Of a stretch of DNA of 32,191 bases, positions 14,083-32,191 are shown one piece after another; the first letter of the stretch is position 1, and every line of letters begins with the position of its first letter. The DNA is from a virus, in IMG/VR virus record IMGVR_UViG_3300032313_001250, positions 1 to 32,191 of that record; one strand, 5' to 3'. The notes beneath the pieces were generated by a model. That model searched no databases and was not told where the DNA came from. It worked only from the letters and a program-made list of their open reading frames with translations. The position numbers were made by a program, and so were the translations under genes.

Positions 14083-14093
14083 TTAATAAATAT
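14083..14093 (-). promoter_or_regulatory. AT-rich pre-start motif, variant ATATTTATTAA
   Basis: The coding strand reads ATATTTATTAA, beginning at the last base of the terminase stop codon and lying 8 bases before the portal ATG. It is a two-mismatch variant of the recurrent ATATTTATAAC element. Confidence 0.35.
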
Positions 14094-15665: not shown

Positions 15666-16238
15666 TTATTTTAGTATTTGCCAGGATATTCCTAACTTTA
15701 TAATAGGTTGTAATCGAAAATTAAATCCTAATCCTAAATTATATTGAGTTTTACCTTCAAATTCATAAGAACCGTTAGCTAGTATAAAACCATTTCCTCC
15801 TAACGCAATATCAGAGCCTAAAAATAAAGAATGTTTTCTTACAACCTCATTAGTTACAATAGTATTAATTTCTTTTCTTTTAACTTTATAATCCATAAAT
15901 TTAGTAATTTTAATCAATGGATTTTCACTTAAAATAGAATACTTAACTAAAATATCAGTAGAATCATTTTTTACGTGTAATGAATCCTCGGTTTGAGCTA
16001 AAATAGTTCCTACTGGGTATGGAAAAGAATCATGAATAGTATCATGAACAGTTACTGTGTATTTATTCCATTTAGGTTTAAGTATAGTATCATGTTCTGT
16101 AAAAGTATCCCATTTAGTTATTTCTATAACCTTTATGGAAGTTTTTCCAGTAGAAATAAACGTATTATCACATTTAGATAACCAGACAATTATTGCAAGT
16201 AATATTGCAATTACAATATATTCTATTTTTATTTTCAT
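15666..16238 (-). CDS. Membrane-anchored protein with beta-rich C-terminus (unknown)
   Basis: 190 aa. Residues about 5-21 (IEYIVIAILLAIIVWL) form one transmembrane or signal-anchor helix, followed by Lys-Cys. The -1 residue is Lys, so this is not a good lipobox. Residues 30-130 are an extended, Thr/Lys/Asp-rich periplasm-type region with repeated short strands (TVHDTIHDS). The last 55 residues alternate aromatic and Gly positions, like beta-hairpins of outer-membrane or envelope proteins (FLGSDIALGGNGFILANGSYEF, trimmed here at the point of repetition). A spanin-like role in lysis is possible, since it would bridge the envelope, but I see no specific spanin motif. Confidence 0.6.
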   Translation of the reverse strand: MKIKIEYIVIAILLAIIVWLSKCDNTFISTGKTSIKVIEITKWDTFTEHDTILKPKWNKYTVTVHDTIHDSFPYPVGTILAQTEDSLHVKNDSTDILVKYSILSENPLIKITKFMDYKVKRKEINTIVTNEVVRKHSLFLGSDIALGGNGFILANGSYEFEGKTQYNLGLGFNFRLQPIIKLGISWQILK

Positions 16239-16648
16239 TAACCAACTAATCCACCAGTATCAATTTTAACGTCTCTTTCTTTAAACGCTTTAATCAATTC
16301 AGGTTTTTTGATAAACTGTTTTAAAGCAGCCATTTTTTTATCTTTTTCGACTCCTTTATCCATTGCTTTTACTTTAGTAACTAAAGTTTTAAGTCTTGAT
16401 TTAAAATCCTCAAAATCAGAATTTGGTACTTTAAATTTAGAAGGAGCACCTTTTACTTTTTCTTTAGCAAGTTCAGCTTTAGTAGGTTCTTTATCTTCAT
16501 CTTCATCCTCAGTTACAGTAACATTTAATCCTTTTTTAGCTAATTCTTCTGCTTTTTTAGGGTCTTTAGTAGAAATAGTACCTTCAATTTCAGATAAAAT
16601 TCCTATAATTTCTTCTTTAATGAATTTTTTAAATTCAGATGCTTTCAT
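16238..16648 (-). CDS. Small charged protein with N-terminal head-targeting-like tag
   Basis: 136 aa, 25-30 percent Lys plus Glu and Asp. The N-terminus MKASEFKKFIKEEIIGILSE resembles the T4 capsid-targeting peptide (MKTYQEFIAEA type). ILSE (17-20) followed by IEGT is a possible gp21-type cleavage point. The rest is a Lys-rich helical region with an acidic stretch (TEDEDEDKEPTK) and a C-terminal helix pair containing FKSRLKTLVTKVKAMDKG. I recognise no enzyme motif. It overlaps the next gene by one base (TAATG) and has the ATATTTATAAC element immediately upstream of its ATG. Confidence 0.65.
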   Translation of the reverse strand: MKASEFKKFIKEEIIGILSEIEGTISTKDPKKAEELAKKGLNVTVTEDEDEDKEPTKAELAKEKVKGAPSKFKVPNSDFEDFKSRLKTLVTKVKAMDKGVEKDKKMAALKQFIKKPELIKAFKERDVKIDTGGLVG

Positions 16649-16649
16649 G

Positions 16650-16660
16650 GTTATAAATAT
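16650..16660 (-). promoter_or_regulatory. AT-rich pre-start motif ATATTTATAAC
   Basis: An exact copy overlapping the last base of the upstream TAA stop. The spacer is the 11 bases TATTTATAACC between stop and ATG, nearly identical to the 11-base spacer at 21428-21438. Confidence 0.5.
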
Positions 16661-17190
16661 TACCCAAAAATTGTTTCTTTAATTTTTGAGATACGTTCAT
16701 CCGTTGTACCTGATATGGTTATTAGATTTTTAATACGGTGTTGATTTCTGTTTAAATCTAGTTTAATAAGATTATTAATAACTTCTCTATAATTAGCATC
16801 TGTAGTTCTTACTCCATTATCCTCTATTTCTACTCCTTCAGGAGAAACATAAAATAAATAATCATATTCATGTAATAAGTTACGTGCTAATTCATTAAAC
16901 TTTTCAGATTCATAATAACTAATAGATTCAGCAGCTCTAGTAAAAGCCATAACATCAATTACAGTTCTATCTGTAATAATATTAACTTGTAATAATTCAG
17001 CAGCACGTTCTGCTAAAAATATAATCTGACCTTTTAATGTTGAATCAGTGTTTAATGGAATACCTAAATCACGTAGATATTTAGAACGTTCAGTTGCAAA
17101 ATTATAGTCTACAAATTCAGGTAAATCTTTTAAAGCATTAACAAGAGTTGTTTTACCTACACTCATTGAACCACAAAAACCTATCTTCAT
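16660..17190 (-). CDS. NadR-like/AAA_28 P-loop nucleotide or nucleoside kinase
   Basis: 176 aa. It begins MKIGFCGSMSVGKTTL, with Walker A GSMSVGKT at 7-14. The DRTVIDVMAFTRA block (98-110) resembles the Asp-Arg region of NadR ribosylnicotinamide kinases and related deoxynucleoside kinases. YDYLFYVSPEG is the following core strand. The family phosphorylates nicotinamide riboside or nucleosides, so a role in NAD or nucleotide supply during infection fits, but the substrate cannot be read from the sequence. It has no N-terminal tag, unlike its neighbours. It sits 2 bases after the MORN-like gene. Confidence 0.82.
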   Translation of the reverse strand: MKIGFCGSMSVGKTTLVNALKDLPEFVDYNFATERSKYLRDLGIPLNTDSTLKGQIIFLAERAAELLQVNIITDRTVIDVMAFTRAAESISYYESEKFNELARNLLHEYDYLFYVSPEGVEIEDNGVRTTDANYREVINNLIKLDLNRNQHRIKNLITISGTTDERISKIKETIFG

Positions 17191-17192
17191 AT

Positions 17193-17441
17193 TTAGTTTC
17201 TATTTTGACCTGCTTGACCTAAAGCTGTCTTGTACCATGGTAATCCCTCACGATTACGTCTTGCTTCTTTCCAACCATCTTCTGTATATTGAATGCCATG
17301 AAGATAATATTCTCTTCTACGATTATCACCTTCAGGAATTAAAGCTGGACCTTCCCAATTATGTAATTTACCATCAAAAACATAAGCAATAGTTCCATCT
17401 GCTTTTTTTAGTTTTTTAGTTTGTTGATACTTTTTGGTCAT
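17193..17441 (-). CDS. Small MORN-like phage protein
   Basis: 82 aa. The centre, DGKLHNWEGPALIPEGDN followed by REYYLHGIQYTEDGWKEARR, matches the small MORN-variant unit (x-NG-x-x-H-x-x-x-GPA-x-x-x-x-x-G-x-x-x-YYxxG) found in many phage and bacterial proteins. The C-terminal REGLPWYK tail is also recurrent in phages (from memory). The function is unknown. The N-terminal 12 residues are Lys-rich. It lies between the FAD dehydrogenase and the NadR-like kinase in the same transcription unit. Confidence 0.7.
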   Translation of the reverse strand: MTKKYQQTKKLKKADGTIAYVFDGKLHNWEGPALIPEGDNRRREYYLHGIQYTEDGWKEARRNREGLPWYKTALGQAGQNRN

Positions 17442-17477
17442 GATTGTAATATAATAAAAATATATTGCTTATCCAAA

Positions 17478-18836
17478 TTAAAAATGAATTACATCTCCTG
17501 ATGTATTATCCCACTCTTTCTCTAATATAGATTCTACTGATAGAATACCTTGAGCCCCACTTACAGTTATACCACGAGCCGATAAAGCATCTCCTACAAA
17601 GTGAACATTAGAATAATCTACTAAAGATAAATTTTTATAATTTACTTTCACTTCAGGTGAAAGATATTTTACCTCGGGAATATAAACACCCCAATCATCA
17701 CCTAATGTTGGAAATATTTTTTTCATATCCTCAATAAAATCTTCAATATATTGAAAATAACCTTGAAATGATTCTCTAACTTTAAATAATTCTTCTAATC
17801 CAATTTGAAAAGCATCTACTTGATTTCCTTCAGATGTTGTTGAAACTGTACGAGAGGGGGAATAATATAATCCTTTATCTTTAATTTGGCATTCTTTAAC
17901 TAATTTTCTTGACCAAGCAAATGGATCCTCGATACCATTGATTTCCATTAAGATACCAAAATTGGTCATATCGTTTCTATAACGCATATCTTTTTTAGCA
18001 TGACCATTGTAACTATAATCCCCGTATGTTTCCTCTACAGCAACATAAGCTGCATTATTATTTGTACAAAATGATCTTAATGAAACACCTTTATCCTCAA
18101 ATTTACGATATAATTTAAAATCATAACTAATATCAATTAATTTTTGGAAATGTTCTTGTGGTGCCTCAAATCGAACTCCAATCTGTACTGATTTAGGTTC
18201 ATCTGGTAATTCATATTGTTGAGCTAATTCTTGAGCAAAGTCAATACCTGATTTTCCTACTGCAAAAATAAGTTCATCATATTCAATAGCACCTTCCCCA
18301 ACTTGATTTTTATAAGTAAAATACACTAAACGAGATTCAAAATCAATTTTAAATACTTTTTCTTCCCAAATAAATTTTACACCTTTAGATACTAAATAAT
18401 CATACCAATTTTTAGCAATCTCAGATAGATAATCTGTACCTACGTGCCAAACAGGAAATAATCGTAAACCAAAATATGGTTTAATAAAATCTGGTTCAGT
18501 AATAGGATTTGAACATTGTACTTCCTCTGGTTTAGGATGAAAACGTTTAAAGTTATTAATAACCTCATCCATTAGTTTCATTGCCTTTTCCTCACCTGTA
18601 TACTTAGATAATTGTCCTCCAATAGCTGTATGATAAGTTAATTTACCATCAGACCAACCTCCAGCACCTAGGAAACCTGTCATTACTTCCTCAGGTTTTC
18701 TGTTATAAGGGTCTTTACCCATATCTATCAGGGTTATTAGATGACCTGGGTATCCATTGTCTACTAATTTAGTAGCAGCATTTACTCCTGCTACACCTGC
18801 TCCTACGATTACAATTTTTTTATTCATATCTAACAT
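17478..18836 (-). CDS. FAD-dependent dehydrogenase (COG2509-like)
   Basis: 452 aa. The N-terminal Rossmann motif VIVGAGVAGVNAA (8-20) is followed by GAGGWSDGKLTYH, the counterpart of the GGAGAFSDGKL block of NAD(FAD)-utilizing dehydrogenases. The C-terminal FAD-contact block is FVGDALSARGITVSGAQGI. The cysteine-bearing motif usual in the cellular family appears here as SLRSFCTNNN. The oxidation substrate is unknown. Cellular homologues are soluble flavoproteins of uncertain role. It is an unusual gene for a phage. It starts just after a terminator and ATG 18836 is chosen because GAG precedes it, but Met4 at 18827 is equally possible. It shows no tag sequence. Confidence 0.85.
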   Translation of the reverse strand: MLDMNKKIVIVGAGVAGVNAATKLVDNGYPGHLITLIDMGKDPYNRKPEEVMTGFLGAGGWSDGKLTYHTAIGGQLSKYTGEEKAMKLMDEVINNFKRFHPKPEEVQCSNPITEPDFIKPYFGLRLFPVWHVGTDYLSEIAKNWYDYLVSKGVKFIWEEKVFKIDFESRLVYFTYKNQVGEGAIEYDELIFAVGKSGIDFAQELAQQYELPDEPKSVQIGVRFEAPQEHFQKLIDISYDFKLYRKFEDKGVSLRSFCTNNNAAYVAVEETYGDYSYNGHAKKDMRYRNDMTNFGILMEINGIEDPFAWSRKLVKECQIKDKGLYYSPSRTVSTTSEGNQVDAFQIGLEELFKVRESFQGYFQYIEDFIEDMKKIFPTLGDDWGVYIPEVKYLSPEVKVNYKNLSLVDYSNVHFVGDALSARGITVSGAQGILSVESILEKEWDNTSGDVIHF

Positions 18837-18867
18837 CTCAATATAATATATTTTTTTATTTTTTCCA

Positions 18868-18901
18868 AATTAAAAGTGGCCCACTTTTTAAGGTAGGCCA
18901 C
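18868..18901 (-). terminator. Rho-independent terminator upstream of the FAD dehydrogenase gene
   Basis: In the minus transcript GUGGCCUAC (18901-18893) pairs with GUGGGCCAC (18884-18876) as a 9-bp stem that includes one internal G-U and an 8-base loop, followed by UUUUAAUUU. The internal pair is a wobble only on the minus strand (it would be C-A on the plus strand), which supports this orientation. The terminator closes the block that ends at 18947. Confidence 0.8.
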
Positions 18902-18946
18902 AGCTCTATATAATTTAACCCCTGGGAAAGCACGACTGTCTATGAA

Positions 18947-19102
18947 TCAGTCTATAAATTTAGGAAACCTATTTAAATAAAATTGTTCTTTATCATCCAA
19001 ATCAATATCAACCTCAGATAATCTTTCTTGATATTCTGATTCAGTAATAATACCTGCTCTTTTTTGAAGTAATAATATTTCTTCTGTTAATTGATATTTC
19101 AC
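18947..19102 (-). CDS. 51-aa peptide with QKRAGIITESEY motif, GTG start
   Basis: GTG at 19102 overlaps the stop of the cupin-like gene as GTGA, giving a 51-residue frame ending in TGA at 18947. The peptide contains LLQKRAGIITESEYQERLSE (11-30), a motif that recurs in many T4-type phage proteins and resembles the C-terminal WQKLAGIIK of the scaffold gene in this window. This match and the coupled start justify calling it real despite its length. A head-associated role is inferred only from the motif. Downstream, 18841-18946 holds the terminator. Confidence 0.6.
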   Translation of the reverse strand: MKYQLTEEILLLQKRAGIITESEYQERLSEVDIDLDDKEQFYLNRFPKFID

Positions 19103-19359
19103 GATTTGTGTATTTTTAGTTTTAGAGTTCCAGTTCCTTTAATAACACGATGCCACTCATGTCTTTTTATAAATATTGGATAATTTAAAGAAGTCGGCAA
19201 TTGATTATCTAATTGTAACTTCCAATCTGTTTCACCTATTATTTCAACTGTTCTATCCTCATTATCACGATGCCAAAGTAATTCAATAGGGTCAATATTA
19301 TCATCAAACTCTCTGATGATATATTTATTTGTAACCTCTATATCCTTATATGGTTTCAT
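19099..19359 (-). CDS. Small cupin-like conserved phage protein
   Basis: 86 aa. LLWHRDNEDRTVEII (28-42), a WKLQLDNQLP strand pair and the terminal FIKRHEWHRVIKGTGTLKLKI form the His/Glu-containing two-strand pattern of small cupin-like proteins known from cyanophage and other T4-type genomes (from memory). The histidines of WHRD and EWHR could bind a metal. No reaction is known. The ATG at 19359 comes directly after, and in frame with, the TGA stop of the upstream gene. Confidence 0.7.
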   Translation of the reverse strand: MKPYKDIEVTNKYIIREFDDNIDPIELLWHRDNEDRTVEIIGETDWKLQLDNQLPTSLNYPIFIKRHEWHRVIKGTGTLKLKIHKS

Positions 19360-20157
19360 TCATATCGTAGATTGTGTGAGTTTCTTTTGGAGTTTATTTA
19401 CCGCAGTTTGTAATGATTTTAAATGATCTTGTTTCCAACCAATATTTTTCTTTTTCCATCCAGGAACTATATTATTATAAGAATCTGTTTTTGCTTTATT
19501 ATAAGCAGCCTCATCATTATCATAGTTTTTTGCCGCATCCCTCCGAATTATTTCCTCCCAAGAAGGCCATTCATAATAATCGGGGGATGCTGTTACTAAA
19601 TTAATAATTTCTTTATCACTTAATTTAGAATTTGTTTCTATTTCGTTATTTAATCTATCTATTTGCTTTTGAAAACCTTCAATTTCTTGATTAATTTTTT
19701 CTATTTTAGATAGTTTCTTAATTTTTTCTTTATAAACAGAAGTAATTTCTGAGTTACCTGTTTTTCCTAATCTGGTTTTGGTAATATAACGATAATGTAA
19801 TTGTTGAATACTATAACCACCAGCTAATATAGCTTCTGTTTCAAAGGGATATACCGTTCCATCCCTTTCAATTTGGGCGGATATTTGAATGCTTCCTTTG
19901 CCTGATCTTCTTGCACTTATAGAAACAAGTTTATCAGTTGGTTTAGTATATGATTCAACGGCCTTAACTAAATCTACAATAAGACTCCACCTAAACATTT
20001 CCCTATCATATTCAGTAACAGGTTTTTGAAACTTTTCAACATACCATTCCTCTATTTGAGATATCATATCTTTTATAGTAGGCTCTAATTCATCTAATAT
20101 AGTATTAACTATATTTTGATTAAGCACTTCTTTTAAAAGTGTTTTAAGTTTAATCAT
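19360..20157 (-). CDS. Tagged helical/coiled-coil protein (unknown)
   Basis: 265 aa. The N-terminal tag is MIKLKTLLKEVLNQNIVNTI. Residues about 80-130 look like a beta-rich module (VSISARRSGKGSIQISAQIE) and 145-190 form a coiled coil (KIEKINQEIEGFQKQIDRLN). The C-terminus has a Trp-rich stretch, EWPSWEEIIRRDAAKNYDN, and a Lys-rich helix. I recognise no catalytic motif. The stop is TGA followed immediately by the ATG of the next gene in the same frame. Confidence 0.65.
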   Translation of the reverse strand: MIKLKTLLKEVLNQNIVNTILDELEPTIKDMISQIEEWYVEKFQKPVTEYDREMFRWSLIVDLVKAVESYTKPTDKLVSISARRSGKGSIQISAQIERDGTVYPFETEAILAGGYSIQQLHYRYITKTRLGKTGNSEITSVYKEKIKKLSKIEKINQEIEGFQKQIDRLNNEIETNSKLSDKEIINLVTASPDYYEWPSWEEIIRRDAAKNYDNDEAAYNKAKTDSYNNIVPGWKKKNIGWKQDHLKSLQTAVNKLQKKLTQSTI

Positions 20158-20158
20158 G

Positions 20159-20596
20159 TTATTCCCCTTTACGTTCTTGCCAATCGTAAGATATAGTATC
20201 TTTTACAATAGGACCACCTTTAGCCCATGTTCTACAAGTACGAGCGGAATGGCATTTAAAACTATGCATCCAACAATATCCTAACTTACCATCTTTATCT
20301 GATAGTTCACCAGGCATACAATCTTCCATTCTTGGAGAAATATCAAAAGCCGCACAATTACCACATAAAGATTGTTCGGCTGCTTCAACGGTTGTGTCCC
20401 AGTGTTCCGCTAATTCCTCCCAAAATTCTCCAGGTTCATCTACATTTAAAGGACCATATTTAATATAATCTGCTTTAATAGCTGAGTCTCTGTTTTTAGT
20501 GTTTAGTTCTAGATCTTGAGTAGGAAGAGGACAAGCCATAGCTGCCTCAAACAGCTTATTTTCGGCTAAATATTTTTTTAAATCAAAGTTACTCAT
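20159..20596 (-). CDS. Tagged cysteine-cluster protein, possible HiPIP-like Fe-S site
   Basis: 145 aa. The N-terminal tag FDLKKYLAENKLFEAAM (4-20) includes LFEA, a possible gp21-type cut site. The core TQDLELNTKNRDSAIKADY and CGNCAAFDISPRMEDCMPGE...GYCWMHSFKCHSARTCRTW carries Cys78, 81, 93, 108, 115 and 121 plus His111 and His116. Close relatives occur as uncharacterised proteins in cyanophages (from memory). The order C-x2-C-x11-C-x14-C with an aromatic-Cys near the end resembles high-potential iron-sulfur proteins; zinc binding is the alternative. It could be a small redox or metal-carrying virion protein. Confidence 0.72.
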   Translation of the reverse strand: MSNFDLKKYLAENKLFEAAMACPLPTQDLELNTKNRDSAIKADYIKYGPLNVDEPGEFWEELAEHWDTTVEAAEQSLCGNCAAFDISPRMEDCMPGELSDKDGKLGYCWMHSFKCHSARTCRTWAKGGPIVKDTISYDWQERKGE

Positions 20597-20603
20597 CTTA
20601 TTT

Positions 20604-20614
20604 ATTATAAATAT
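20604..20614 (-). promoter_or_regulatory. AT-rich pre-start motif, variant ATATTTATAAT
   Basis: One mismatch (final C to T) from the recurrent element, located 7 bases before the ATG at 20596 in a 30-base spacer. Confidence 0.4.
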
Positions 20615-20626
20615 AGTTAAATAGAT

Positions 20627-21427
20627 TTACCAAAAACCGCTAAAATTAGATTTTAAACCTAATAACTTTGCGTACCTTGGTAACCTACAAGACCAGTAAG
20701 ATGCTTTTGTACGGTCTTTTTTATTAGGACAATCATGTCTTTTAGAAAAAGCAGCTCTAGCCTTTGAATTATTTATTTTAGCTGATAATCCTGATGTATC
20801 ACCAAATGATATTTTTTTAACTTTACCTTTATCTTTTACATAAACATAAAATTTCTTCGATCCACCACGTTTTGGTTTTCCAATTGGTGGGTCTTTCTTT
20901 TTATCTTTTTTAGCTTCGTCTAATTTTTCCTCAACTTCCTCCATTATAAAATCTAATGGAACTTTTTTACCTTCTTTATTTAATACTCGTAAATCAGATT
21001 CGTGATATGATTGGTTTCCTTCTTTTGTTTTAACTACAATAAATGAACCTTTAATATCAACTACTTCACCTGATAATCCACCGTATTCTTTGGATGATTT
21101 TACTTTATCTCCAACTTCAATCTCGTATACAATACCATATTCACCCAAATGTGTTTCGGTTAATATCTCTAAATCATCTCCTGTAAAATCTAAAACACCA
21201 CGAGTATATAATGCTCTTGCTTCTGCCCATAAATTAAAATAATTGGATGAACCAGCACGATATACATGCTCGGTAAGCGGTTTTTTATTGTCTATATGAT
21301 ATTTTAATCCCTCAGACAATATATCACGTGGAGCTATGCTTTCATTTAATATAGGCGCTCTAGTAGGTTTAACTGCTTTGCAGCAATCACTATATAACAC
21401 CTCTTTAATTAGTTTTTTTAAATCCAT
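20627..21427 (-). CDS. Modular tagged phage protein with KOW-like and basic C-terminal modules
   Basis: 266 aa. The N-terminal tag is MDLKKLIKEVL. A second module (about 50-98: HVYRAGSSNYFNLWAEARAL) and a third beta-rich SH3/KOW-like module (105-150: VGDKVKSSKEYGGLSGEVVD) follow. LDEAK at 169-173 marks the boundary to a Lys-rich linker and a C-terminal module (192-258) containing VKKISFGDTSGLSAKIN and a conserved HDCPNKKDRTKASYWSCR block with Cys233 and Cys247. The last module is widespread in T4-type phages (from memory) and has no known function. LNES (27-30) and LDEAK are candidate prohead-protease sites. Confidence 0.72.
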   Translation of the reverse strand: MDLKKLIKEVLYSDCCKAVKPTRAPILNESIAPRDILSEGLKYHIDNKKPLTEHVYRAGSSNYFNLWAEARALYTRGVLDFTGDDLEILTETHLGEYGIVYEIEVGDKVKSSKEYGGLSGEVVDIKGSFIVVKTKEGNQSYHESDLRVLNKEGKKVPLDFIMEEVEEKLDEAKKDKKKDPPIGKPKRGGSKKFYVYVKDKGKVKKISFGDTSGLSAKINNSKARAAFSKRHDCPNKKDRTKASYWSCRLPRYAKLLGLKSNFSGFW

Positions 21428-21428
21428 A

Positions 21429-21439
21429 GTTATAAATAT
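21429..21439 (-). promoter_or_regulatory. AT-rich pre-start motif ATATTTATAAC
   Basis: An exact copy starting at the last base of the upstream TAA stop and ending 1 base before the ATG at 21427. The whole 11-base spacer is TATTTATAACT, matching the spacer at 16649-16659 in ten of eleven bases. Confidence 0.5.
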
Positions 21440-22656
21440 TATTTAGTTTTACTAATCCGTAATGATAAAGGTAATAATTTACCTGAGGTATTCCTAATTG
21501 AAACTTGATATTGAGAGATGCCAAAAATAGGACTGTTGGTATCTATCTTCATAGTTAATTGTTTTGTGTTTGGTCCTGGGTATTTTATTTCTGTGTTAGT
21601 AATGTTACCAATAGCATTTTGAGCATCTTCAGGTGAAAGTAAAGATATAACTTTTACTTCACCTGGTTTGGTTTCTCTAACATAATAATAACCATAACCT
21701 AAAGATGAAGCTAATAATTTTTTAAACTTTTCAGTGTCAATTTCAGCTTTAGACCAACTACCTTCCGTACCTTCTTTAGTTACATACTGATTTAATCCAT
21801 CAGCTAATTTTTGAGAATCAATATTAAAAATATCAAACAATAAAGCTATCGATGGAGTAGTATTTTTTTTACTTTCATCATAAACAACTTTACCATCTTT
21901 TTCATAAATAAAAGGAACATTAGGACCACTATAAACTCCACTACCGGCTACGTTTTTTAATGAAATAAAATATTCTTTATTATCATAGGTTATAGTTAAA
22001 TCCGATATTGTTTTACCTATATCTTGAGGACCATCTAAACTTAAACTTCTTTTAGTATCTGTAGCACCAGCAAATTTAATATTGTTAGCAATTAATTTAG
22101 TATTATCAATACCTAATTTATCATATAATGTTTTTAAATCATTAGGTAATTCATTATTAGGTTTACCTACATTTTCTTTAGCTTTAGCTACAAAATTTTG
22201 CTCATATTTTTCTCCTTCATTACCTCCACCACTTACAATAATTCTAATCATACCAAATTTATCAGTATCCATTTCATACATTGAAAATTTACCTGATGGA
22301 TTAGGTCCTTGTTTGGGACTATAAGTAGTTATGTTTTCAGCTCCTAATAAATCTTTAAAAAGTTGAATTATTTTTTCAGAATCTATTTTATTAGGATTAC
22401 CTAAACGATTTTTATCACTTTGTGGTTTAAATCCTAACTCGGAATTAGCATTACTTAAAATATATTCAACTGCTTTTTTAGTGTTAGTATTGATTTCTCT
22501 ATCTGTTATTTCCAACAACAATGATTCTTTTAAATTAATATCTAATTCTTTTAGTATAGATTCTAACAACATAACATCTTTAGGATTACCCATATCAGGA
22601 TAACCTTTATCAAATTTGTATGAAAACTTTTTAAAAAATAAATCTAGTGCGTCCAT
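21439..22656 (-). CDS. Phage protein with possible PD-(D/E)xK-like core
   Basis: 405 aa. The N-terminus LFFKKFSYKFDKGYPDMGNP is a conserved phage peptide (from memory), followed by Leu/Glu-rich helices (LLESILKELDINLKESLLLEI) that resemble the tags. The core has RIIVSGGGNEGEKYEQNFV, KFAGATDTKRSL and DIGKTISDLTITYDNKEYFISLKN. The last has the D-x(n)-hydrophobic-x-hydrophobic-K shape of restriction-endonuclease-fold proteins, although the usual acidic residue before x-K is Ser here. A nuclease, possibly inactive, is one reading. I cannot confirm it without structure prediction. The C-terminal 80 residues are beta-rich. Confidence 0.55.
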   Translation of the reverse strand: MDALDLFFKKFSYKFDKGYPDMGNPKDVMLLESILKELDINLKESLLLEITDREINTNTKKAVEYILSNANSELGFKPQSDKNRLGNPNKIDSEKIIQLFKDLLGAENITTYSPKQGPNPSGKFSMYEMDTDKFGMIRIIVSGGGNEGEKYEQNFVAKAKENVGKPNNELPNDLKTLYDKLGIDNTKLIANNIKFAGATDTKRSLSLDGPQDIGKTISDLTITYDNKEYFISLKNVAGSGVYSGPNVPFIYEKDGKVVYDESKKNTTPSIALLFDIFNIDSQKLADGLNQYVTKEGTEGSWSKAEIDTEKFKKLLASSLGYGYYYVRETKPGEVKVISLLSPEDAQNAIGNITNTEIKYPGPNTKQLTMKIDTNSPIFGISQYQVSIRNTSGKLLPLSLRISKTK

Positions 22657-22666
22657 AATATTTTAT

Positions 22667-23152
22667 TTAAACCTCTGGTTCTTCAGTGGGTGTTTCTTCT
22701 GGTGTTTCTACTGGGTCTTCAGCAGGCTCGGCTGATGTTTCTTCATCAGGAGTTGCCTCTGCTTTTTGACCATAAGATAATACTCTTGCTAATGTTTGAG
22801 CGGCTTGTTCTTCCTCTCCAAGATTAGTAAGATAATATTTTTTACCTTCAATAGTAGCAACCCAACTTCTAGGGGTGTAATGTAGAAAAAAGGTTTCACC
22901 GTTTGCTAATAATATTCTAAATGTAGTAGGACGTGGTGCAACCCATTGAATATCTTCAATAAATAATTCGTATTGTTTTGTAAATAAATCTACAATAGTT
23001 TTTTTAAGGTCTGGAAACTTGGCTAAAACAGGAAATGTTTCTTCTATATCTAAATTAATGTTAGAAGGAGTATCTAAGTCAACAGGCGTATCTTTTGAAT
23101 ACACCTGTTTAGCTAGAATTTTAATTTTTTCTTTTAACTCATTTCTAGTCAT
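22667..23152 (-). CDS. Conserved phage protein with tag and acidic Pro/Glu/Thr tail
   Basis: 161 aa. It starts with a tag-like helix MTRNELKEKIKILAKQVYS. The core (50-125) contains FPDLKKTIVDLFTKQYELFI, VAPRPTTFRILLANGETF and a strand with TPRSWVATIEGKKYYLTNL, a block conserved in environmental T4-type phages. The tail (about 133-161) is repeats of Pro, Glu, Thr and Ala (ETSAEPAEDPVETPEETP) and is probably disordered. It has no known function. It overlaps the preceding gene by one base. Confidence 0.65.
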   Translation of the reverse strand: MTRNELKEKIKILAKQVYSKDTPVDLDTPSNINLDIEETFPVLAKFPDLKKTIVDLFTKQYELFIEDIQWVAPRPTTFRILLANGETFFLHYTPRSWVATIEGKKYYLTNLGEEEQAAQTLARVLSYGQKAEATPDEETSAEPAEDPVETPEETPTEEPEV

Positions 23153-23541
23153 TATTTAGACTTTAGTTTTTGTATAATTTTTTCTGATATATAAGGTTTG
23201 GCTATTTTTTCAGCAGCATCTATATTACCTTTATTTAAAGCTATTCTAGCTTGTTTAAGGTTACTTTGGTCTGAAGCATCTTTGTTAGTCATTGCTTTAA
23301 GTGCTTTAGTAATTTTACCTGCTAAAATTTCATCCTTACCAATTTTATTCTCATCGATTATCTCTTCATCAGAGGCAACACCTACCATAGCATCAATAGA
23401 TGGTTCTTTAAGTTCAAAATCAAGATAATGTTTGGCAGAAACCATATTATGAGCGGCTGTAGTAATTTTAGACTGCCACCAAGCAGGAAAATCTACTTCA
23501 CCTGGACCTTCAAATTGGTCTACCATTTGATAAAGCTCCAT
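23152..23541 (-). CDS. Downstream half of an interrupted phage protein
   Basis: 129 aa from ATG 23541. The first residues, MELYQMVDQFEGPGEVDFPA followed by WWQSKITTAAHNMVSAKHYL, form a conserved helical module of T4-type phages that normally follows ...HMIKxxLYRIxKYA in one chain (from memory). Here it is separated from the upstream ORF only by TGA AAA TAT GCT, in the same frame, so 23152-24390 reads as one gene interrupted by one TGA. The rest is helical (DEILAGKITKALKAMTNKD, ALNKGNIDAAEKIAKPYISE). It may be expressed from the internal ATG, by read-through, or not at all. Confidence 0.6.
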   Translation of the reverse strand: MELYQMVDQFEGPGEVDFPAWWQSKITTAAHNMVSAKHYLDFELKEPSIDAMVGVASDEEIIDENKIGKDEILAGKITKALKAMTNKDASDQSNLKQARIALNKGNIDAAEKIAKPYISEKIIQKLKSK

Positions 23542-23550
23542 AGCATATTT

Positions 23551-25562
<2,012 letters not shown>

Positions 25563-25571
25563 AATAGTATG

Positions 25572-25582
25572 GTTATAAATAT
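25572..25582 (-). promoter_or_regulatory. AT-rich pre-start motif ATATTTATAAC
   Basis: An exact copy on the coding strand in the 21-base spacer before the ATG at 25562, 9 bases from the start codon. Confidence 0.45.
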
Positions 25583-25583
25583 G

Positions 25584-25874
25584 TTATTTTTTATTATATG
25601 TACCTTTTTTGTATTCTGCTTTTTCTGTATTCTTTACAAATTGTTTTCCCTTACGAGAACCAGCAGCTTTTTTCTTAGAGGTTTTAGCAAGTTCGGCTTT
25701 AGATAATGATTGAGCTTTTTTACGAGGTAAACACCTAGTTGTAGCCCCACCTTTTTTCATCGTTCCACAAGGACCAGTAATATTACCTTGAGTATCAATA
25801 CGCACCCAGTCCTCTTTTTTAAACCAGTCACGTAATGATTCAGATACTAATTCTTGTAAACGATTTATATCCAT
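25584..25874 (-). CDS. Small very basic conserved phage protein
   Basis: 96 aa with a high Lys/Arg content. The N-terminal helix MDINRLQELVSESLRDWFKK acts like the tags of the neighbours. The core VRIDTQGNITGPCGTMKKGG and RCLPRKKAQSLSKAELAKT is a conserved block in T4-type phages (a small domain of unknown function with two Cys, C36 and C48). The C-terminus is a run of Lys and Gly suited to binding DNA. A DNA-associated internal head protein is a plausible role. It shares the TAATG overlap with its upstream neighbour. Confidence 0.7.
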   Translation of the reverse strand: MDINRLQELVSESLRDWFKKEDWVRIDTQGNITGPCGTMKKGGATTRCLPRKKAQSLSKAELAKTSKKKAAGSRKGKQFVKNTEKAEYKKGTYNKK

Positions 25875-27025
25875 TATTTTTTCTTTTTTTTACCTGACAT
25901 TTGGCCTTTACATACTTTTGATGCGCGACCCATTAAATAAGCAGAATGTTTTTCTCCTCCTCCTCCTTCAGATTTAGGTTTTTTTCTCTTTTCAACATAT
26001 GCTTTACCTGCAGGACATAGTTCCTCGTTAATTTTATCTAAAGCTTCGGAAATTCTTTCCTCTAATGGTTTGTACCCAGAACCATAAGGTGCTGCTTTAC
26101 CATCGTGATTAGGGGCAACATTTTCTTCTGTTTTTTCAGTAGTACCTACAATCTCTTCATAATCATCTATTTGTAAAATACCTCTTTCTTTACCTAATTT
26201 GTTTGCCTTTTCGGTAACATCATGTAAATCTAAATCTTGTTCCGCATCTTCTCTAGCGTATTCTAACATACGAAGGAATAAAGGAATATCCATTGTAATT
26301 GTATCTACTTTATCTTCTGATTTGGCTTCATTCATGGATGATTTTACATCTTCGGGATAAACAAACATTTTGTATTTTAATTTTTTATCTAAAAGTTCTA
26401 TATCATATCCAAACACATCTTCCATTACATCACTATACATTGACCTACCACTTTTACTTACTTTTATAATTTCCCATTTGTTATCTACAATTCCATTTCT
26501 TATTTCGTAAGGTAAATTTTCTGGGAAATTTTTTAATTCAACAACATCACCAATTTTAAAATGTGAACTTTTAGCTTCATTCATTGATTTTGATTGTTTT
26601 ACAGCACTTCCTAAATTAAATTCATAAACAATCCTATTAAACTTATCATAAAATTCATTTGATTTATTATTTGGTCTATAAATTGCTTCAAATGGTTTAA
26701 AATTATTACCTGACATTTCGTATTTAACACCTAAAGCATCTAATTTCTTTTTAGCCATGTCAATAGCTGTTTCTTCTTTAGCTTCATTTAAATCAATAGA
26801 TCTATATAATCCATCTTTACTTTTTTTATCTTTATCTTCTAAAGCTTTTTTAAATTCCTCTGCTTTCTTTTTAGCATTGTCGGGAGCACCTTTAGGATCA
26901 TTTTTAAATACTTTAGAGTATTTTTTATAATCTCTATCAGTCCAAACTACTTTGTAGCTATTTTCTGTTTTAGCTTCTTCTAAAGATTTAGAAAAGAATT
27001 CTTGTATTTTTTTAATATCGTTCAT
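25874..27025 (-). CDS. Beads-on-a-string protein with four [LM]xEAK linkers
   Basis: 383 aa. Four near-identical linkers occur: LEEAK (15-19), LNEAK (79-83), MNEAK (148-152) and MNEAK (231-235), separated by 64, 69 and 83 residues. Each follows Ser/Asp-Leu or Ser-Met. Between them lie small modules: YKVVWTDRDYKKYSKVF, a 69-residue alpha/beta module with FKPFEAIYRPNNKSNEFYDK, and a KOW/SH3-like beta module (FKIGDVVELKNFPENLPYE). The C-terminal module has INEELCPAGKAYVEKRK and AYLMGRASKVCKGQMSG, ending in a Lys tail. If the linkers are cut after Glu by the gp21 protease, this is a polyprotein. No enzyme signature is recognised. Confidence 0.75.
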   Translation of the reverse strand: MNDIKKIQEFFSKSLEEAKTENSYKVVWTDRDYKKYSKVFKNDPKGAPDNAKKKAEEFKKALEDKDKKSKDGLYRSIDLNEAKEETAIDMAKKKLDALGVKYEMSGNNFKPFEAIYRPNNKSNEFYDKFNRIVYEFNLGSAVKQSKSMNEAKSSHFKIGDVVELKNFPENLPYEIRNGIVDNKWEIIKVSKSGRSMYSDVMEDVFGYDIELLDKKLKYKMFVYPEDVKSSMNEAKSEDKVDTITMDIPLFLRMLEYAREDAEQDLDLHDVTEKANKLGKERGILQIDDYEEIVGTTEKTEENVAPNHDGKAAPYGSGYKPLEERISEALDKINEELCPAGKAYVEKRKKPKSEGGGGEKHSAYLMGRASKVCKGQMSGKKKKK

Positions 27026-27639
27026 TATTTTTTCTTATTTAAATATTCATCAAGTAAAGTACCAATCACACCCGCTTTCTGTCGTATAAATATCCAATCC
27101 TCTTTAGTAAATTTATATTCCTCATTATACGAAACAGCTAATGCTCCTATAAAACGATCTTGTAAATCATTTAAGGCAATCATATAAAATGATTGGGTAC
27201 CAAAAGGTTTTGTAACTGAGGATAAATCATAATCATCCTTAGTAAAGTCCGATATAGCTATTTCACCATCGGAATACAAAGTAGACATAGCTTTAGGAAA
27301 TAAAGATACAGGAATATTTTGAAATGTATGTTGGATTGGAATTAAACCGGGAATACATTTTTCATAAAAAATTGAAAACTTTTGTATTGATTTTCCTGTA
27401 GGATAAAAATGACCTCCATTATGAAATTGGGCAACCCATACTCTATCTGCCTCCATTTCATCTAAAAGGTGGATAACTTGTTCATCAACTAAGCTATTTA
27501 ATTCAATGGCCTCATCTACTGGATCTTTAGGGGTGGATTTGGTTTCAAATTTTTTCTTAGCCCATGCTACAGCAATAGGCCCAAAAACGGCGGTAATCAA
27601 AGCTACCGAAATTGTAGTTAATACAGTTAGTGGTTCCAT
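27025..27639 (-). CDS. Membrane-anchored GAF-domain protein
   Basis: 204 aa when started at ATG 27639. The longer frame to 27717 would overlap the upstream gene by 79 bases, whereas 27639 gives the TAATG overlap usual here, and it places a clean transmembrane helix at the N-terminus (LTVLTTISVALITAVFGPIAV, about 4-24). Residues about 60-195 form a GAF-like alpha/beta domain with RVWVAQFHNGGHFYPTGKS, FSIFYEKCIPG, NIPVSLFPKA, and DRFIGALAVSYNEEYKFTKE. GAF domains sense small molecules or mediate dimers; no ligand is predicted. A holin-like or membrane-sensor role is conceivable. Similar phage proteins exist without experimental function (from memory). Confidence 0.72.
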   Translation of the reverse strand: MEPLTVLTTISVALITAVFGPIAVAWAKKKFETKSTPKDPVDEAIELNSLVDEQVIHLLDEMEADRVWVAQFHNGGHFYPTGKSIQKFSIFYEKCIPGLIPIQHTFQNIPVSLFPKAMSTLYSDGEIAISDFTKDDYDLSSVTKPFGTQSFYMIALNDLQDRFIGALAVSYNEEYKFTKEDWIFIRQKAGVIGTLLDEYLNKKK

Positions 27640-28208
27640 TATTTTCTTAATGATTTTAAATATTCTAATGCTTCTTGTTTTTGTCTTAATAATTGTTCCT
27701 TTCCAGAACCATCCCATTTTTCAACATCTCCTTGTTCTGTTATAAAGGATTCTTTAGCATTAATAAAATCTTCAAACCAAATTTCGAAATCTTTGGACAA
27801 CCCTTCTATGTAATCATTTGTAACTTCTTTTTCTACTTGTTCTAATTTATTTTCTTGACGTAATTTATGTTCGGTCATAACCTGACAGTTAAAGCAGTGA
27901 CCATACATTACATACCATCTTTTATCAAGATGGGGTTTCATACTTTTACTACAAGTAGGACAAAACACAGGTAAAATTATACCCTTTTTAGCGTTATCTA
28001 ATTTAGTTATATTTTGTTTAATACCATTTTTAATGGTCCAGTTACGACCATCTTCATCCCAGATATCTCCTTCACTATGAAATTCTTTAGCTTTATTATA
28101 ACCAGTCCCCATCGTGGTACGATCACCGTATTTACCCGTAACTAGGTTACGCATACGTTCAACATCACGTTGTTTGAACTCTTTTTTCAGAACTGTATCT
28201 TTTTTCAT
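27639..28208 (-). CDS. Zinc-ribbon conserved T4-type phage protein
   Basis: 189 aa. RDVERMRNLVTGKYGDRT (14-31) and EGDIWDEDGRNWTIKNGIKQ (46-65) are conserved in T4-type phages. A four-cysteine ribbon CPTC-x18-CFNC (Cys83, 86, 105, 108) follows, then a helical Glu/Lys-rich C-terminus. A role in nucleic acid or protein binding is likely from the ribbon. The function is otherwise unknown. It has no obvious N-terminal tag and ends in the TAATG overlap with the GAF gene. Confidence 0.75.
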   Translation of the reverse strand: MKKDTVLKKEFKQRDVERMRNLVTGKYGDRTTMGTGYNKAKEFHSEGDIWDEDGRNWTIKNGIKQNITKLDNAKKGIILPVFCPTCSKSMKPHLDKRWYVMYGHCFNCQVMTEHKLRQENKLEQVEKEVTNDYIEGLSKDFEIWFEDFINAKESFITEQGDVEKWDGSGKEQLLRQKQEALEYLKSLRK

Positions 28209-28916
28209 TTATTTTTTCTTATATTCAAATAATAAGATTTCTTTCAATTCTGATTTTTTTAGTTTGCCTGTTCTTTTTAATTTTTCCATCAAATCGGTTA
28301 CTCTATGAGGTATATCAAAATTATTACTGTTAGGTGCTCTGCCTGGGATCATGTCTTGGGGATTGATTTCCTCTTCATCAGGTATTTCTAATTGGGAAGG
28401 ATCATAATCAGCATAATCAATCTCTACATTAAATCTATTAGCATAAGTATCAAATTCCTCACTTGCCATAAAATCAGAAAGTTCATCCTCGGTTGAAAAA
28501 TATCCTGTATCTCCTAAATCTGTTATAAATTTAGAAAACTCTGAACGTGGTTCATAGCTCATAGGAAACGATTTGTCCTTATATTTAAAAAATATAGTAG
28601 CTAAACGTTTATCTAAAGCTTCTTTTAAACCAAGATTTTCCTTAACGGCTTTTAATGTTGGTTTATCTTTAGTAACAGTAGTTACTTTATTACGAGTAGC
28701 AATATCTTTAATTTTGGATGCTAATGAGGCAGCAGATGATTCTTTGGTTTTAATATCAATTACCATTTTACCATCAACACCTGCTTTAATATCTAATTTA
28801 CCATCTGGAAAATCTTTTTTCCATTCTTTAGACATTTTTACTTTTACCTCATCGGCAGTTGCTTTAGCTTTATCTCCTGATAATACTAGTCTTTTATATG
28901 TAATTGGTTGTGCCAT
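28209..28916 (-). CDS. Modular protein with C-terminal tag (unknown)
   Basis: 235 aa. An N-terminal alpha/beta module (1-85) has YKRLVLSGDKAKATADEVKV and KMVIDIKTKESSAASLASKI. LKEA (97-100) marks the boundary to a second module with RLATIFFKYKDKSFPMSYEP and an acidic region rich in Asp and Tyr. The extreme C-terminus, LKKSELKEILLFEYKKK (219-235), is the tag sequence found at N-termini elsewhere in the block, here placed last. No catalytic motif is seen. Confidence 0.65.
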   Translation of the reverse strand: MAQPITYKRLVLSGDKAKATADEVKVKMSKEWKKDFPDGKLDIKAGVDGKMVIDIKTKESSAASLASKIKDIATRNKVTTVTKDKPTLKAVKENLGLKEALDKRLATIFFKYKDKSFPMSYEPRSEFSKFITDLGDTGYFSTEDELSDFMASEEFDTYANRFNVEIDYADYDPSQLEIPDEEEINPQDMIPGRAPNSNNFDIPHRVTDLMEKLKRTGKLKKSELKEILLFEYKKK

Positions 28917-28918
28917 AA

Positions 28919-29464
28919 TTATAGTCCTATGTTTTGTAGTTGTTTAATTGTATCTTGTGTGCTTGTATGTAGAATTCCTATACCACCTTGACTTCTCCAT
29001 TGGTCAATATTATCAGGGCGGTCGTCAATAAGTATTCGATTTCCCTTAGAGTAATTCTTTTTTTTATCAGCTGATGCTAAAATTAATTCTACTCCTGGGA
29101 GGTTATTTTTTACCCATAATCTTTTACCTAAACGAGAGGCAGGATTTCTAGAGGGGGCTGAAAGTAATTTAGGGGTATATTTAGAAATATAATCCCAAAG
29201 TTGTTTTCCATCGGACATCCAGTCAATCCCTACCCAAAATTTTACTTTATTTTCAACATCTATTAAATTCCAAAACTTTTCTATACCATATTTGTTTTGG
29301 TATTGAGAGGCAGATAAACGTTCAGGATTAAGTTCTTTAAAACGTTTTTCAAAATCAGTTAAAACGCCATCCATATCACAATACAATTCATAGTGAGGAA
29401 AAGGTTCAGCAGGAACTGCTTCTTCTTCTTTTAATTGCTTATATAAATCTGTTAGCTTATACAT
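28919..29464 (-). CDS. HAD-superfamily 5'-nucleotidase-like phosphatase with N-terminal tag
   Basis: 181 aa. After a tag-like leader (MYKLTDLYKQLKEEEAVPAE) comes HAD motif I, YCDMDGVLTDF, with the nucleophile Asp30 and general acid Asp32. Motif II is LLSAPS (Ser102) and motif IV is ILIDDRPDNI (Asp147-Asp148). The architecture suits the NT5C-like 5'(3')-deoxyribonucleotidase group or a generic small HAD phosphatase acting on (deoxy)nucleotides. It starts inside the end of the upstream large gene (8-base overlap, GATGTATAA). The tag suggests packaging in the head; that is inference. Confidence 0.82.
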   Translation of the reverse strand: MYKLTDLYKQLKEEEAVPAEPFPHYELYCDMDGVLTDFEKRFKELNPERLSASQYQNKYGIEKFWNLIDVENKVKFWVGIDWMSDGKQLWDYISKYTPKLLSAPSRNPASRLGKRLWVKNNLPGVELILASADKKKNYSKGNRILIDDRPDNIDQWRSQGGIGILHTSTQDTIKQLQNIGL

Positions 29465-32191
29465 CTTTTCTTTTTAATACTACAAATCGACCTTTACCTT
29501 GAGGGGTATTAAATTCAAGATTAACATCTTTTCTAAAATACCCAGGTATTCTATTATATTTGTTGTCTGTTAAATTAGCATATATTGTATGATAGTTTTT
29601 ATCTCCTATATTATCCATTGAAGCTATACCAATATAATCAGGTTCGTCAGTTTCAGCAAGATCTAATATAATTTTATACATTGTATTTAAAATTTTTATA
29701 TAATCTTCTTTAGTTGTATCACCTGTGGGGGTAGAAATAGGATTATTTTTAGGATGAAATTCTACATTATAAAATTCTTTATTGTCATTATATGGACTTT
29801 TTATTCTGTAGATATCATAAGTGTATACTTTATTTCCTGCTCGGAACATACCCTTATATAAATCACCTTCTATTTCAGCTGCATTGTTTTTTGATAAAGT
29901 AATTTCATGGAGAGATTCACGTAACTTATCTACAAATGTTTTGGGATAATTAAATTTAGGTATATCAATAAACAATTCATTAACATTATTTTTTATTTTA
30001 TCCTCCCAATTACGTAACATCATATTTCCTTTCTCGTATGCCTCTCTTTCAATTTCATCTAAATCCCCACCCTCATTTGTGTTAGTTGTAGTTATATTAC
30101 TTAACTTTCCATTAAGATTTTGTTCGTGATGAATCATTTCATGAGCAAAAGATCGTAATATATCTTTTGGGTGTCTGCCAAAAGTATATAAGGTGATTGA
30201 TTTATTGGATGGATCATAGTAAGCAGTCTTACCCAAAAGATCGGATGCATTTTCTTTGTCATCCTTTATAACCTTTATTTTTGGCAATGGTTTTATATTC
30301 ATTCCATTGTCTATCATGTACTTAGATAAAGATACGAAATTTCCCTGTGGATTCCAACCCTTTGTCAAATCTCTTCCAACCTCTTTTCCAAATTGTTTTG
30401 CCAATTCATTTAAACCAAAAGGATCTGATATAGGGGTATTATCGTATCCACACTTATGACAAATATATAAATCATCTCCACCATCCTCTTTATCCCATTT
30501 CCAACCACAATTATCACAAATAACTTGAGTAGCAGTTACTAATTCTTCTAAATTATTAGAATCCATATTTTCACTTATAACAGGAACTTGTTTTGTATCC
30601 TCTACATCATTAAAATCTTTAGGATATTGTTTATTAATTCCACTAATAATAATATCTTCATTATTTGTATTAACATCAAATGTAGAAGGAGATACGTTTA
30701 TAAAATAATTTTTATAATATTCTAATCTATCAAAAGTATCTGAATTAGTTTGTTGGTTTTCATTTGTTTTTTGTTTACGTAATCGTTCTGTCTTCTTTTT
30801 AGACATTTCTTTACGTGATTCAATATAATCTAATCCTCTTTTTAAACGAGCTTTTACCTCAGGATCTTTTGCTTTACCATAAGCAGCTCTTACTCGTTGA
30901 TGTATTAAATTAATTACCTGGGATTGGCGAGCATGTGGTTTAGATTTAAATGATGTTTTGTTTAGAGTATCAACTATATCCTCTTTAGTTTTAAATTTAA
31001 TACCTACTGTATCCTTTGGGTTTTCATCTGTGTATAATCTACGAGATGATCCTTCAGGTTTTTTACCCGTTCCTTTTTTAGGATCAGCTTCATTAATAGC
31101 ATCAGGTAAAAGAGCGACTACTCCATCTCCATATAATTCAGAGCGAATAGGTTCAAATTTAACACCCGGTATTGCTTTAGAAATAAAAGCTTTATATAAA
31201 TTATCTCTTTGAGTACCAAAATCTTCAGATGATTTTTTAGATGGGTAATAAGTAATACCTTTAGTTTTGGATTTTTTAAGATATTTTTTTATTATATCTA
31301 CTATAGTAGCCATCACTTTATACATTTCTCCTTTATTGACTACTATTTTAGATGAAGAACCTTTAGCATCTTTTAATTTAGCTGAGAATTCTATATTAAG
31401 GATTGGGATTCCTTGGTATGTATCTGTTGTTACGTCTACATTATATTGTGTTTCGCTATCTGTTATGAATCGAATATAAACAGAATAACCTTCTATATCA
31501 ACTTCTTCCCATTTATATGGTTTAAGATTTGCCTCCCCTACTTCATTTATTAAATTTTTTTTATAAATTTCTATATATTCATCACCTTTAGCATTTTTAC
31601 CTTCTTTAGCATCATAATCAGATAATTTAGATAAATTCTTTTTAATGTAAGCAGCATAAAATTTACCCCGTTTAGAATCTAATTTAGATCCGGTATCAAC
31701 ATCACTTTTAGGAGCAACTTGTAAGGATACTAAATTACCTCCAGAGGCATTTACGTTGTCAATAAAATCAAAAATAATTTTTGTTACTGTAGATAATACT
31801 GAAAATTGTTCATTTAGGTTAGAGGTTTTTTCTTCTGTATCTCCTTCAATATTAAAACCAACCGCAGCATATGTTTTGTATGGAGGACCCGGTTTCCAGT
31901 TTGGGTTTCCGGCAATATTAGCATATCTTTTACGTTCCATTACTACATGAAACCTGACATCATAATTACCTTTATCGGTTTTAAATTTATATACTAGTTT
32001 AGTATCAAAATATGTAGCTGAAGTATTAGTTTCATGAAACTTTTTAGCAACATCTACTAATTTACTTGGATCTATATCAGATGTAAAAGGATATACTTTA
32101 GCACTCGCATCACCAATTTCATTCATAAAAGCAGATGGGGTAACATATGAACTTAGTTTTAAAGCTTTTAACAATAAAGCAACTAAAGAAC
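29457..32191 (-). CDS. Large multidomain protein: three repeat domains, zinc ribbon, HExxH protease (5' end outside window)
   Basis: The frame is open to the right edge: codons S-L-V-A-L precede the TTG at 32174, so TTG is not a credible start and the true start lies beyond 32191. Numbered from 32174, there are three copies of an alpha/beta module (about 18-182, 209-340, 756-900), two of them opening with NE[IV]G[DE]A...[KP]xY. Between them lie a Lys-rich region (380-470), a zinc ribbon CDNC/CHKC (Cys553, 556, 572, 575), and a metalloprotease-like segment ILRSFAHEMIHHEQ with HEMIH at 678-682 and a downstream DEIEREAYEKGN that could supply the third ligand. INEA (359-362) is a candidate cut site. 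The HExxH block is recurrent in T4-type phages. I infer a virion or head-internal multidomain protein. Confidence 0.75.
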   Translation of the reverse strand, partial: SLVALLLKALKLSSYVTPSAFMNEIGDASAKVYPFTSDIDPSKLVDVAKKFHETNTSATYFDTKLVYKFKTDKGNYDVRFHVVMERKRYANIAGNPNWKPGPPYKTYAAVGFNIEGDTEEKTSNLNEQFSVLSTVTKIIFDFIDNVNASGGNLVSLQVAPKSDVDTGSKLDSKRGKFYAAYIKKNLSKLSDYDAKEGKNAKGDEYIEIYKKNLINEVGEANLKPYKWEEVDIEGYSVYIRFITDSETQYNVDVTTDTYQGIPILNIEFSAKLKDAKGSSSKIVVNKGEMYKVMATIVDIIKKYLKKSKTKGITYYPSKKSSEDFGTQRDNLYKAFISKAIPGVKFEPIRSELYGDGVVALLPDAINEADPKKGTGKKPEGSSRRLYTDENPKDTVGIKFKTKEDIVDTLNKTSFKSKPHARQSQVINLIHQRVRAAYGKAKDPEVKARLKRGLDYIESRKEMSKKKTERLRKQKTNENQQTNSDTFDRLEYYKNYFINVSPSTFDVNTNNEDIIISGINKQYPKDFNDVEDTKQVPVISENMDSNNLEELVTATQVICDNCGWKWDKEDGGDDLYICHKCGYDNTPISDPFGLNELAKQFGKEVGRDLTKGWNPQGNFVSLSKYMIDNGMNIKPLPKIKVIKDDKENASDLLGKTAYYDPSNKSITLYTFGRHPKDILRSFAHEMIHHEQNLNGKLSNITTTNTNEGGDLDEIEREAYEKGNMMLRNWEDKIKNNVNELFIDIPKFNYPKTFVDKLRESLHEITLSKNNAAEIEGDLYKGMFRAGNKVYTYDIYRIKSPYNDNKEFYNVEFHPKNNPISTPTGDTTKEDYIKILNTMYKIILDLAETDEPDYIGIASMDNIGDKNYHTIYANLTDNKYNRIPGYFRKDVNLEFNTPQGKGRFVVLKRKDV

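Follow-up and report, generated by a model that had tools for sequence, protein, structure and literature searches.

The internal proteins IPI, IPII and IPIII of phage T4 enter the prohead by means of a leader of the MKTYQEFIAEA type, which is cut by the protease gp21. Experiments on the capsid-targeting sequence (CTS) of IPIII, MKTYQEFIAE, assign targeting mainly to residues 4 and 7 and processing to residues 8 and 10 (review PMC9026906), and the T-even internal proteins differ from each other in their mature part (PMC3012670). IPI acts as an inhibitor of a restriction enzyme, and T4 depends on IPIII for one strain of E. coli (PMC9391042). The viral sequence IMGVR_UViG_3300032313_001250, analysed here over its whole stretch of 32 kb (the window), consists of minus-strand genes and encodes a T4-type terminase, portal gp20, prohead protease, scaffold and gp23. 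Directly upstream of the terminase, a block of 21 genes (from 16238) is rich in short amphipathic tags that resemble the T4 CTS. These tags quite likely target their proteins to the head, as parts of a T4-type internal-protein loading system that would be much enlarged and have exchangeable addresses.

The likeness to IPI, IPII and IPIII lies in a short peptide at the N-terminus that is hydrophobic at the CTS positions and ends in [IL]xE, in the unlike bodies behind a common tag, and in the grouping of a gp21-type protease, gp23, gp20 and scaffold in one gene cluster. In contrast with T4, these phages add three tag classes and have about 7–17 tagged genes per genome rather than 3–4; only here does a tag recur at the scaffold C-terminus, do internal and C-terminal copies occur and are enzymes found as bodies, with processing predicted from sequence. 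T4 Alt, a packaged and injected ADP-ribosyltransferase, has a parallel in some ADP-ribosyltransferase-like (ART-like) tagged bodies, although these belong to another ART family and their packaging is presumed. In phage P1, an N-terminal signal of DarB brings a heterologous protein into the head, but no consensus is reported among the Dar N-termini, the sequence is unrelated and P1 apparently lacks a separate scaffold (PMC9024508). In phiKZ and SPN3US, head proteins and ejected cargo have propeptides cut after Glu by the prohead protease, but these are mostly much longer and no common short tag is described (PMC5694885). The polyvalent proteins of Iyer et al. (2017, PMC5512222) may have a counterpart in the long, putatively multidomain product of window gene 29457-32174; their delivery is deduced from gene context, apparently without regard to tags of this kind. 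Searches of open-access papers found no description of the present tags and no virion proteomics of this clade; a paper on the Flavobacterium hosts (PMC7077304) makes no mention of immuto.

The tags were scored by a strict core, h-x-x-h-[ILV]-x-E within the first 15 residues (h, hydrophobic; the common form is h-x-x-h-[IL]-x-E), whose positions correspond to residues 4, 7, 8 and 10 of the T4 CTS. The spacing in MIKLKTLLKE (20157) is identical, and the other classes have a shifted start. Six of the 38 called window genes carry the core (16238, 19360, 20159, 20627, 24393 and 25584), where shuffled sequences and internal windows, the two controls, each give an expectation of 0.4 (maxima 3 and 2). 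All six lie inside the 21-gene block (p~0.02 by hand), a concentration that is weak on window data alone. The initial annotation had listed seven N-terminal leaders, two internal copies and one C-terminal copy; all are confirmed where it placed them, and all lie on the minus strand. Its total of at least ten tagged proteins is reached only by counting degenerate, internal and C-terminal copies, and two or three of the N-terminal examples, though all are tag-like, are degenerate (MTRNELKEKIK at 23152 and the start at 29464 miss the core).

Scans beyond the window give a firmer picture. In T4, a blind scan with the core returned ten matches, among them ipII, ipIII and gp61.1. Flavobacterium phage immuto, the nearest isolate by terminase comparison, has the core in 15 of 226 genes (3–4 expected), G002 in 13 of 117 (1.5 expected) and G004 in 7 of 85 (0.8 expected). 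Ten relatives together show a rate of 6.6% against 0.9% in the host control, a flavobacterial metagenome-assembled genome (MAG) of 337 genes matched in GC content (0.309 against 0.311; p=1e-6); the background in control phages is ~1–2%. Immuto has a block with matching gene kinds at the equivalent place. The 18 kb upstream of its terminase contain 21 genes, 9 of them tagged, compared with 5 of the remaining 205 (p=1.3e-7). The tags are also selective as to gene type, as had been claimed at the outset: across the ten genomes, 122 homologs of genes for replication and metabolism are all untagged, and tags occur on 2 of 171 homologs of virion genes (in both cases terminase, probably by chance) and on 93 of 1578 others; the kinase (16660) and FAD enzyme (17478) of the window do lack them. 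An equal frequency in replication genes, named at the outset as a refuting result, is not seen. Of five genome contigs that encode a related terminase, two derive from Flavobacteriales MAGs, so a Bacteroidota host is likely for the window phage; the tag-bearing group as a whole probably consists of large phages of flavobacteria.

The T4 match gp61.1 (NC_000866, 18966-19130) is a hypothetical protein whose start, MKTFKEFIKED, closely resembles the T4 CTS; its neighbour is gene 61.2 (adfA, a DarT inhibitor, PMC9391042).

Instead of the single leader consensus first proposed, four tag classes are found in the window phage and its relatives: class A (MKKSELKxxIKEEIxxxLxE), class B (FDLKKYLAExxLxE), class C (RMQKLAGIITE, core RxQKLAGI) and class D (MIKLLDILKE, with T4 CTS-like spacing). 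One class C tag, LLQKRAGIITES at 18947-19102, had been overlooked. Nearly every full-length scaffold protein found also ends, with small variations, in the class C motif, and the strict class C pattern has 24 matches, including the scaffolds of the window, immuto and Mel-JY01. Among viral contigs, there are 71 matching stretches for a degenerate class C pattern and at least 120 for the class A pattern, against none for class A reversed and 0 to 1 class-pattern matches in reversed proteins; these positional patterns were composed after examples had been seen. A single position-specific profile of the leader, as originally advised, was tried and dropped because TerL-adjacent orthologs dominated it and coiled coils were mixed in; the simple core and the four class patterns were adopted instead.

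Some arrangements of these classes stand apart. In L083:872-2534, three of four consecutive small genes have a near-identical class B tag on unrelated bodies, and class A tags occur in tandem arrays of small genes, four in L302:10401-11592 and up to seven in L306:626-2237. In the Rhodothermus phage RM378 (NC_004735), an open reading frame (ORF) beside gp23 (127198-128046) ends in LERIKRLAGL, which resembles the scaffold tail, and may be an unrecognised scaffold of this phage.

Different classes can stand on homologous bodies. Viral contigs fetched by their tags contain 391 N-terminally tagged ORFs in 233 body clusters (52 clusters among the relatives), of which 13 hold more than one tag class, some of them through chained or weak matches. 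Several of the mixed clusters are clean, and one of the two clearest cases is gene 20159-20596, with a class B tag in the window and MKLLDILNE or MINLLDILSE in homologs; its body is conserved from C22, and only the tag residues L6, L10 and E12 are invariant across classes. Its structure model was too poor for use (mean predicted local distance difference test score, pLDDT, 46), and a structure-library sequence search gave no match. In the other, three ART-like homologs, written tag first, read MENKNLKLIDLLNE-SKQVGLLYHYT, MKKSELKQLIKEETHKILNE-GKQVGTLYHFT and MIKLLDILKEITE-GKQVGTLYHFT. When the start of cross-class homology is compared with the cleavage-like site, local alignments extend into the tags; the two swaps just described are clearer.

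Bodies with a recognisable domain include several enzymes. Fe/Mn superoxide dismutases (two examples with E~1e-30, in which the domain begins at residue 15 or 31), zeta-toxin-like kinases (E~1e-17), 5'-deoxynucleotidases and nucleotidyltransferase-like proteins all occur behind tags. The dismutase is found behind a class D tag at L207:2128-2784(-), L341:5505-6206(+) and G017 47433. To our knowledge, this enzyme has not been reported among the head cargo of T4-type phages. In the ART-like family, PF15633 passes the cut-off in one member (L336:577-1053); ART-superfamily structures rank top against the model at E only ~0.5, so the ART label depends on the Pfam match. In the model of the first of the three homologs, the initial 15 residues are poorly ordered and are followed by a confident body, and both dismutase and ART-like bodies start downstream of the tag. 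In several cases a tag ending in [IL]xE directly precedes the body, as in MIGLISLLKE-VQSKPKAIILAGSPGAGKG and MINLIQLLTE-AKDTKFKVPKL. PF03420 and PF07068 are both present in 14 of 18 tag-fetched contigs and both missing from the other four, all <105 kb; since tag-bearing phages are relatives, this co-occurrence of tags and head genes partly reflects shared descent.

The ends of the tags point to the prohead protease. Many end in [ILV]xE, resembling the pro-site of the major capsid protein, NQAKQ[LI][VI]xE, which is retained in 23 relatives; the protease itself starts with an LIE-type sequence, and PI[VLM]E precedes the scaffold tail. The block probably encodes the cargo, or internal proteins, of a phage related to T4; their amphipathic tags, N-terminal and sometimes internal or C-terminal, would dock them on the scaffold core during prohead assembly. 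Once the gp21-type protease had cut the tag off after the [ILV]xE site, the proteins would stay inside the head alongside the DNA until their delivery at infection. Packaging, cleavage after Glu, injection and an early action in host takeover are suggested by the enzyme types among the bodies and by the precedents of T4 IPI and IPIII, Alt and P1 DarB (PMC3012670, PMC9391042, PMC9024508). The site [ILM][NST]E[AGSD] occurs 10 times in block proteins against 2.8 expected, with the excess notable in the modular protein 25874-27025, and 3 times against 2.7 expected in the other window genes. The looser [ILMV]xE[AGSD] is not enriched in block proteins, and for that reason the cutting of polyproteins in the head is put forward only as an idea, with moderate support. 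Somewhat doubtful as a whole is a wider scheme in which a few swappable head addresses, including a copy of the scaffold tail, load a large and fast-changing array of unrelated enzymes and effectors, some of them made as polyproteins of several modules that the prohead protease would cut into separate effectors in the head.

The capsid-targeting proposal made for this block at first thus keeps its core, by virtue of the T4 CTS positions, the class shared with the scaffold, the pro-site-like ends, the tag swaps and the untagged replication genes, but not its one consensus or its count of ten. Several observations weigh against it, in addition to the after-the-fact class patterns and the weak links within mixed-class clusters. 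T4 ipI, whose propeptide differs, is missed by the core scan, and core counts in Syn9, RM378 and HTVC008M are near expectation, with no enrichment. Some tagged genes are separated from the head genes, for example at 1.8 and 25 kb in immuto. In many relatives the start of the large terminase, TerL (MSQDLKQIIREEY), fits the tag core (noted for window 14093-15664, G001, G002, G004, G006 and other loci); a tag-like N-terminus is absent from immuto TerL, and the resemblance is probably chance. Finally, a protein of ~115–139 residues begins with a tag-like helix, LKxLIKEAVKEAIQEELKEILLEA (immuto 81525-81944, G002 80808, G003 53507, G004 64132, G005 23692), and in immuto it adjoins baseplate genes.

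The alternative that survives best is that the tagged proteins are components of the prohead core, scaffold accessories like T4 gp67 and gp68 that are degraded or leave the head rather than delivered effectors. It would explain why a tag is common to the scaffold tail, why [ILM][NST]E[AGSD] sites abound in the block, as in multiply cut core proteins, and why a number of bodies are short and strongly charged. Among the latter is the product of 16238-16648, whose gene lies directly upstream of a spanin-like gene and TerL and has TerL-adjacent homologs in 23 loci (tag consensus MKKSELKxxIKEEIIxILSE). However, tags on superoxide dismutase, zeta-like kinase and deoxynucleotidase do not suit core components, and 233 body clusters are too diverse for a structural role, which makes this alternative unlikely. 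Tags that serve as docking helices for another structure (baseplate, portal-terminase, membrane or replication site) are quite improbable: similar helices do occur in TerL and beside baseplate genes, and some class A genes lie among tail genes elsewhere (L235, L255), but the T4 CTS match, the scaffold-shared motif and the protease-like ends indicate the head, and replication proteins are untagged. Conserved starts could also be DNA elements, recombination seams or translation signals with an incidental peptide, and tags kept while bodies swap are what a recombination seam would give. Yet Ser4 of class A is encoded by six synonymous codons and Leu6 by five, and because synonymous codons vary so freely the peptide is the conserved unit; four dissimilar peptide classes substitute on homologous bodies, and a terminal copy sits at the scaffold C-terminus, so that DNA elements are very improbable. 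Chance, through the amphipathic helices with which Lys/Glu-rich proteins of AT-rich genomes frequently begin, accounts for the control-phage background and apparently for one TerL N-terminus, but is practically negligible given far lower shuffled, reversed and GC-matched controls (reversed class A included) and the absence of an equal frequency in the 337-gene host sample.

If head targeting by these tags is correct, a short sequence signal would predict head-carried phage proteins from genomes alone, and would single out several hundred unnamed proteins as candidates for first-response effectors or anti-defence functions. The scaffold-tail motif would give a concrete docking hypothesis for cargo recruitment, which is unsettled even in T4, and immuto offers a cultured system for testing the tags.

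Table 1. Head genes and tag copies of the window, in order of position
Feature	Positions	Strand	Remarks
Major capsid protein gp23, pro-site NQAKQLVVE (predicted cut after E60)	6195..7856	-	PF07068 E=4e-78
Scaffold C-terminus RWQKLAGIIK (scaffold gene 7887-9194)	7890..7919	-	motif shared with class C tags
Prohead protease (T4 gp21 type), N-terminus MKQVLIE	9395..10003	-	PF03420 E=9e-29
T4-type portal gp20	12194..14074	-	PF07230 E=2e-69
Large terminase (TerL)	14093..15664	-	PF03237; 60% identity to Flavobacterium phage immuto
Class A tag MKASEFKKFIKEEIIGILSE, gene 16238-16648	16589..16648	-	core FKKFIKE
Class C tag MKYQLTEEILLLQKRAGIITE, gene 18947-19102	19040..19102	-	homologous to ITEETLRLQKLAGIISESQYKEKLAEVDI in L018 and L023
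Class D tag MIKLKTLLKE, gene 19360-20157	20128..20157	-	core LKTLLKE; T4 MKTYQEFIAE spacing
Class B tag MSNFDLKKYLAENKLFE, gene 20159-20596	20546..20596	-	homologs bear class D tag
Class D tag MDLKKLIKE, then ILNE and ILSE sites, gene 20627-21427	21401..21427	-	strict core
Degenerate class A-like N-terminus MTRNELKEKIKI, gene 22667-23152	23117..23152	-	misses strict core; L036 relative matches class A pattern
Second internal tag-like copy, 17 residues, in 24393-25562 protein	24891..24941	-	
First internal tag-like copy, 11 residues, in 24393-25562 protein	25194..25226	-	
Class B tag, 23 residues, gene 24393-25562	25494..25562	-	core YKEFLKE
Tag MDINRLQELVSE, small basic protein 25584-25874	25839..25874	-	core LQELVSE
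Degenerate tag MNDIKKIQEFFSKSLEE, gene 25874-27025	26975..27025	-	modular protein, several NE-A linkers, polyprotein-like
C-terminal tag copy, 18 residues, gene 28209-28916	28212..28265	-	G001 homolog ends KLTVTQLKEIIKKEYYK
Degenerate tag MYKLTDLYKQLKE, 5'-deoxynucleotidase gene 28919-29464	29426..29464	-	PF06941 over cut-off from residue 28

Homologs of several block genes keep comparable features. An internal tag-like copy is retained in the 24393-25562 homologs of G001, G004, L185, L196 and L231, and relatives of 25584-25874 begin MDINSIREIIRE (G005) and ITEERVYEIVKE (G003). The 28919-29464 homologs have tag-like N-termini, and that of G017 (MIKLEQLLKEIQ) has the strict core, which the window version (MYKLTDLYKQLKEE) misses. 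In the long, putatively multidomain protein of 29457-32174, only DUF6934 passes the Pfam cut-off, with a zinc ribbon and an HExxH-like peptidase discernible by eye; its homologs, likely tagged, have nucleotidyltransferase and nucleotidase domains. The product of 27025-27717, for which there is no Pfam match, has a membrane segment at its N-terminus, and inspection by eye suggests a GAF-like domain.

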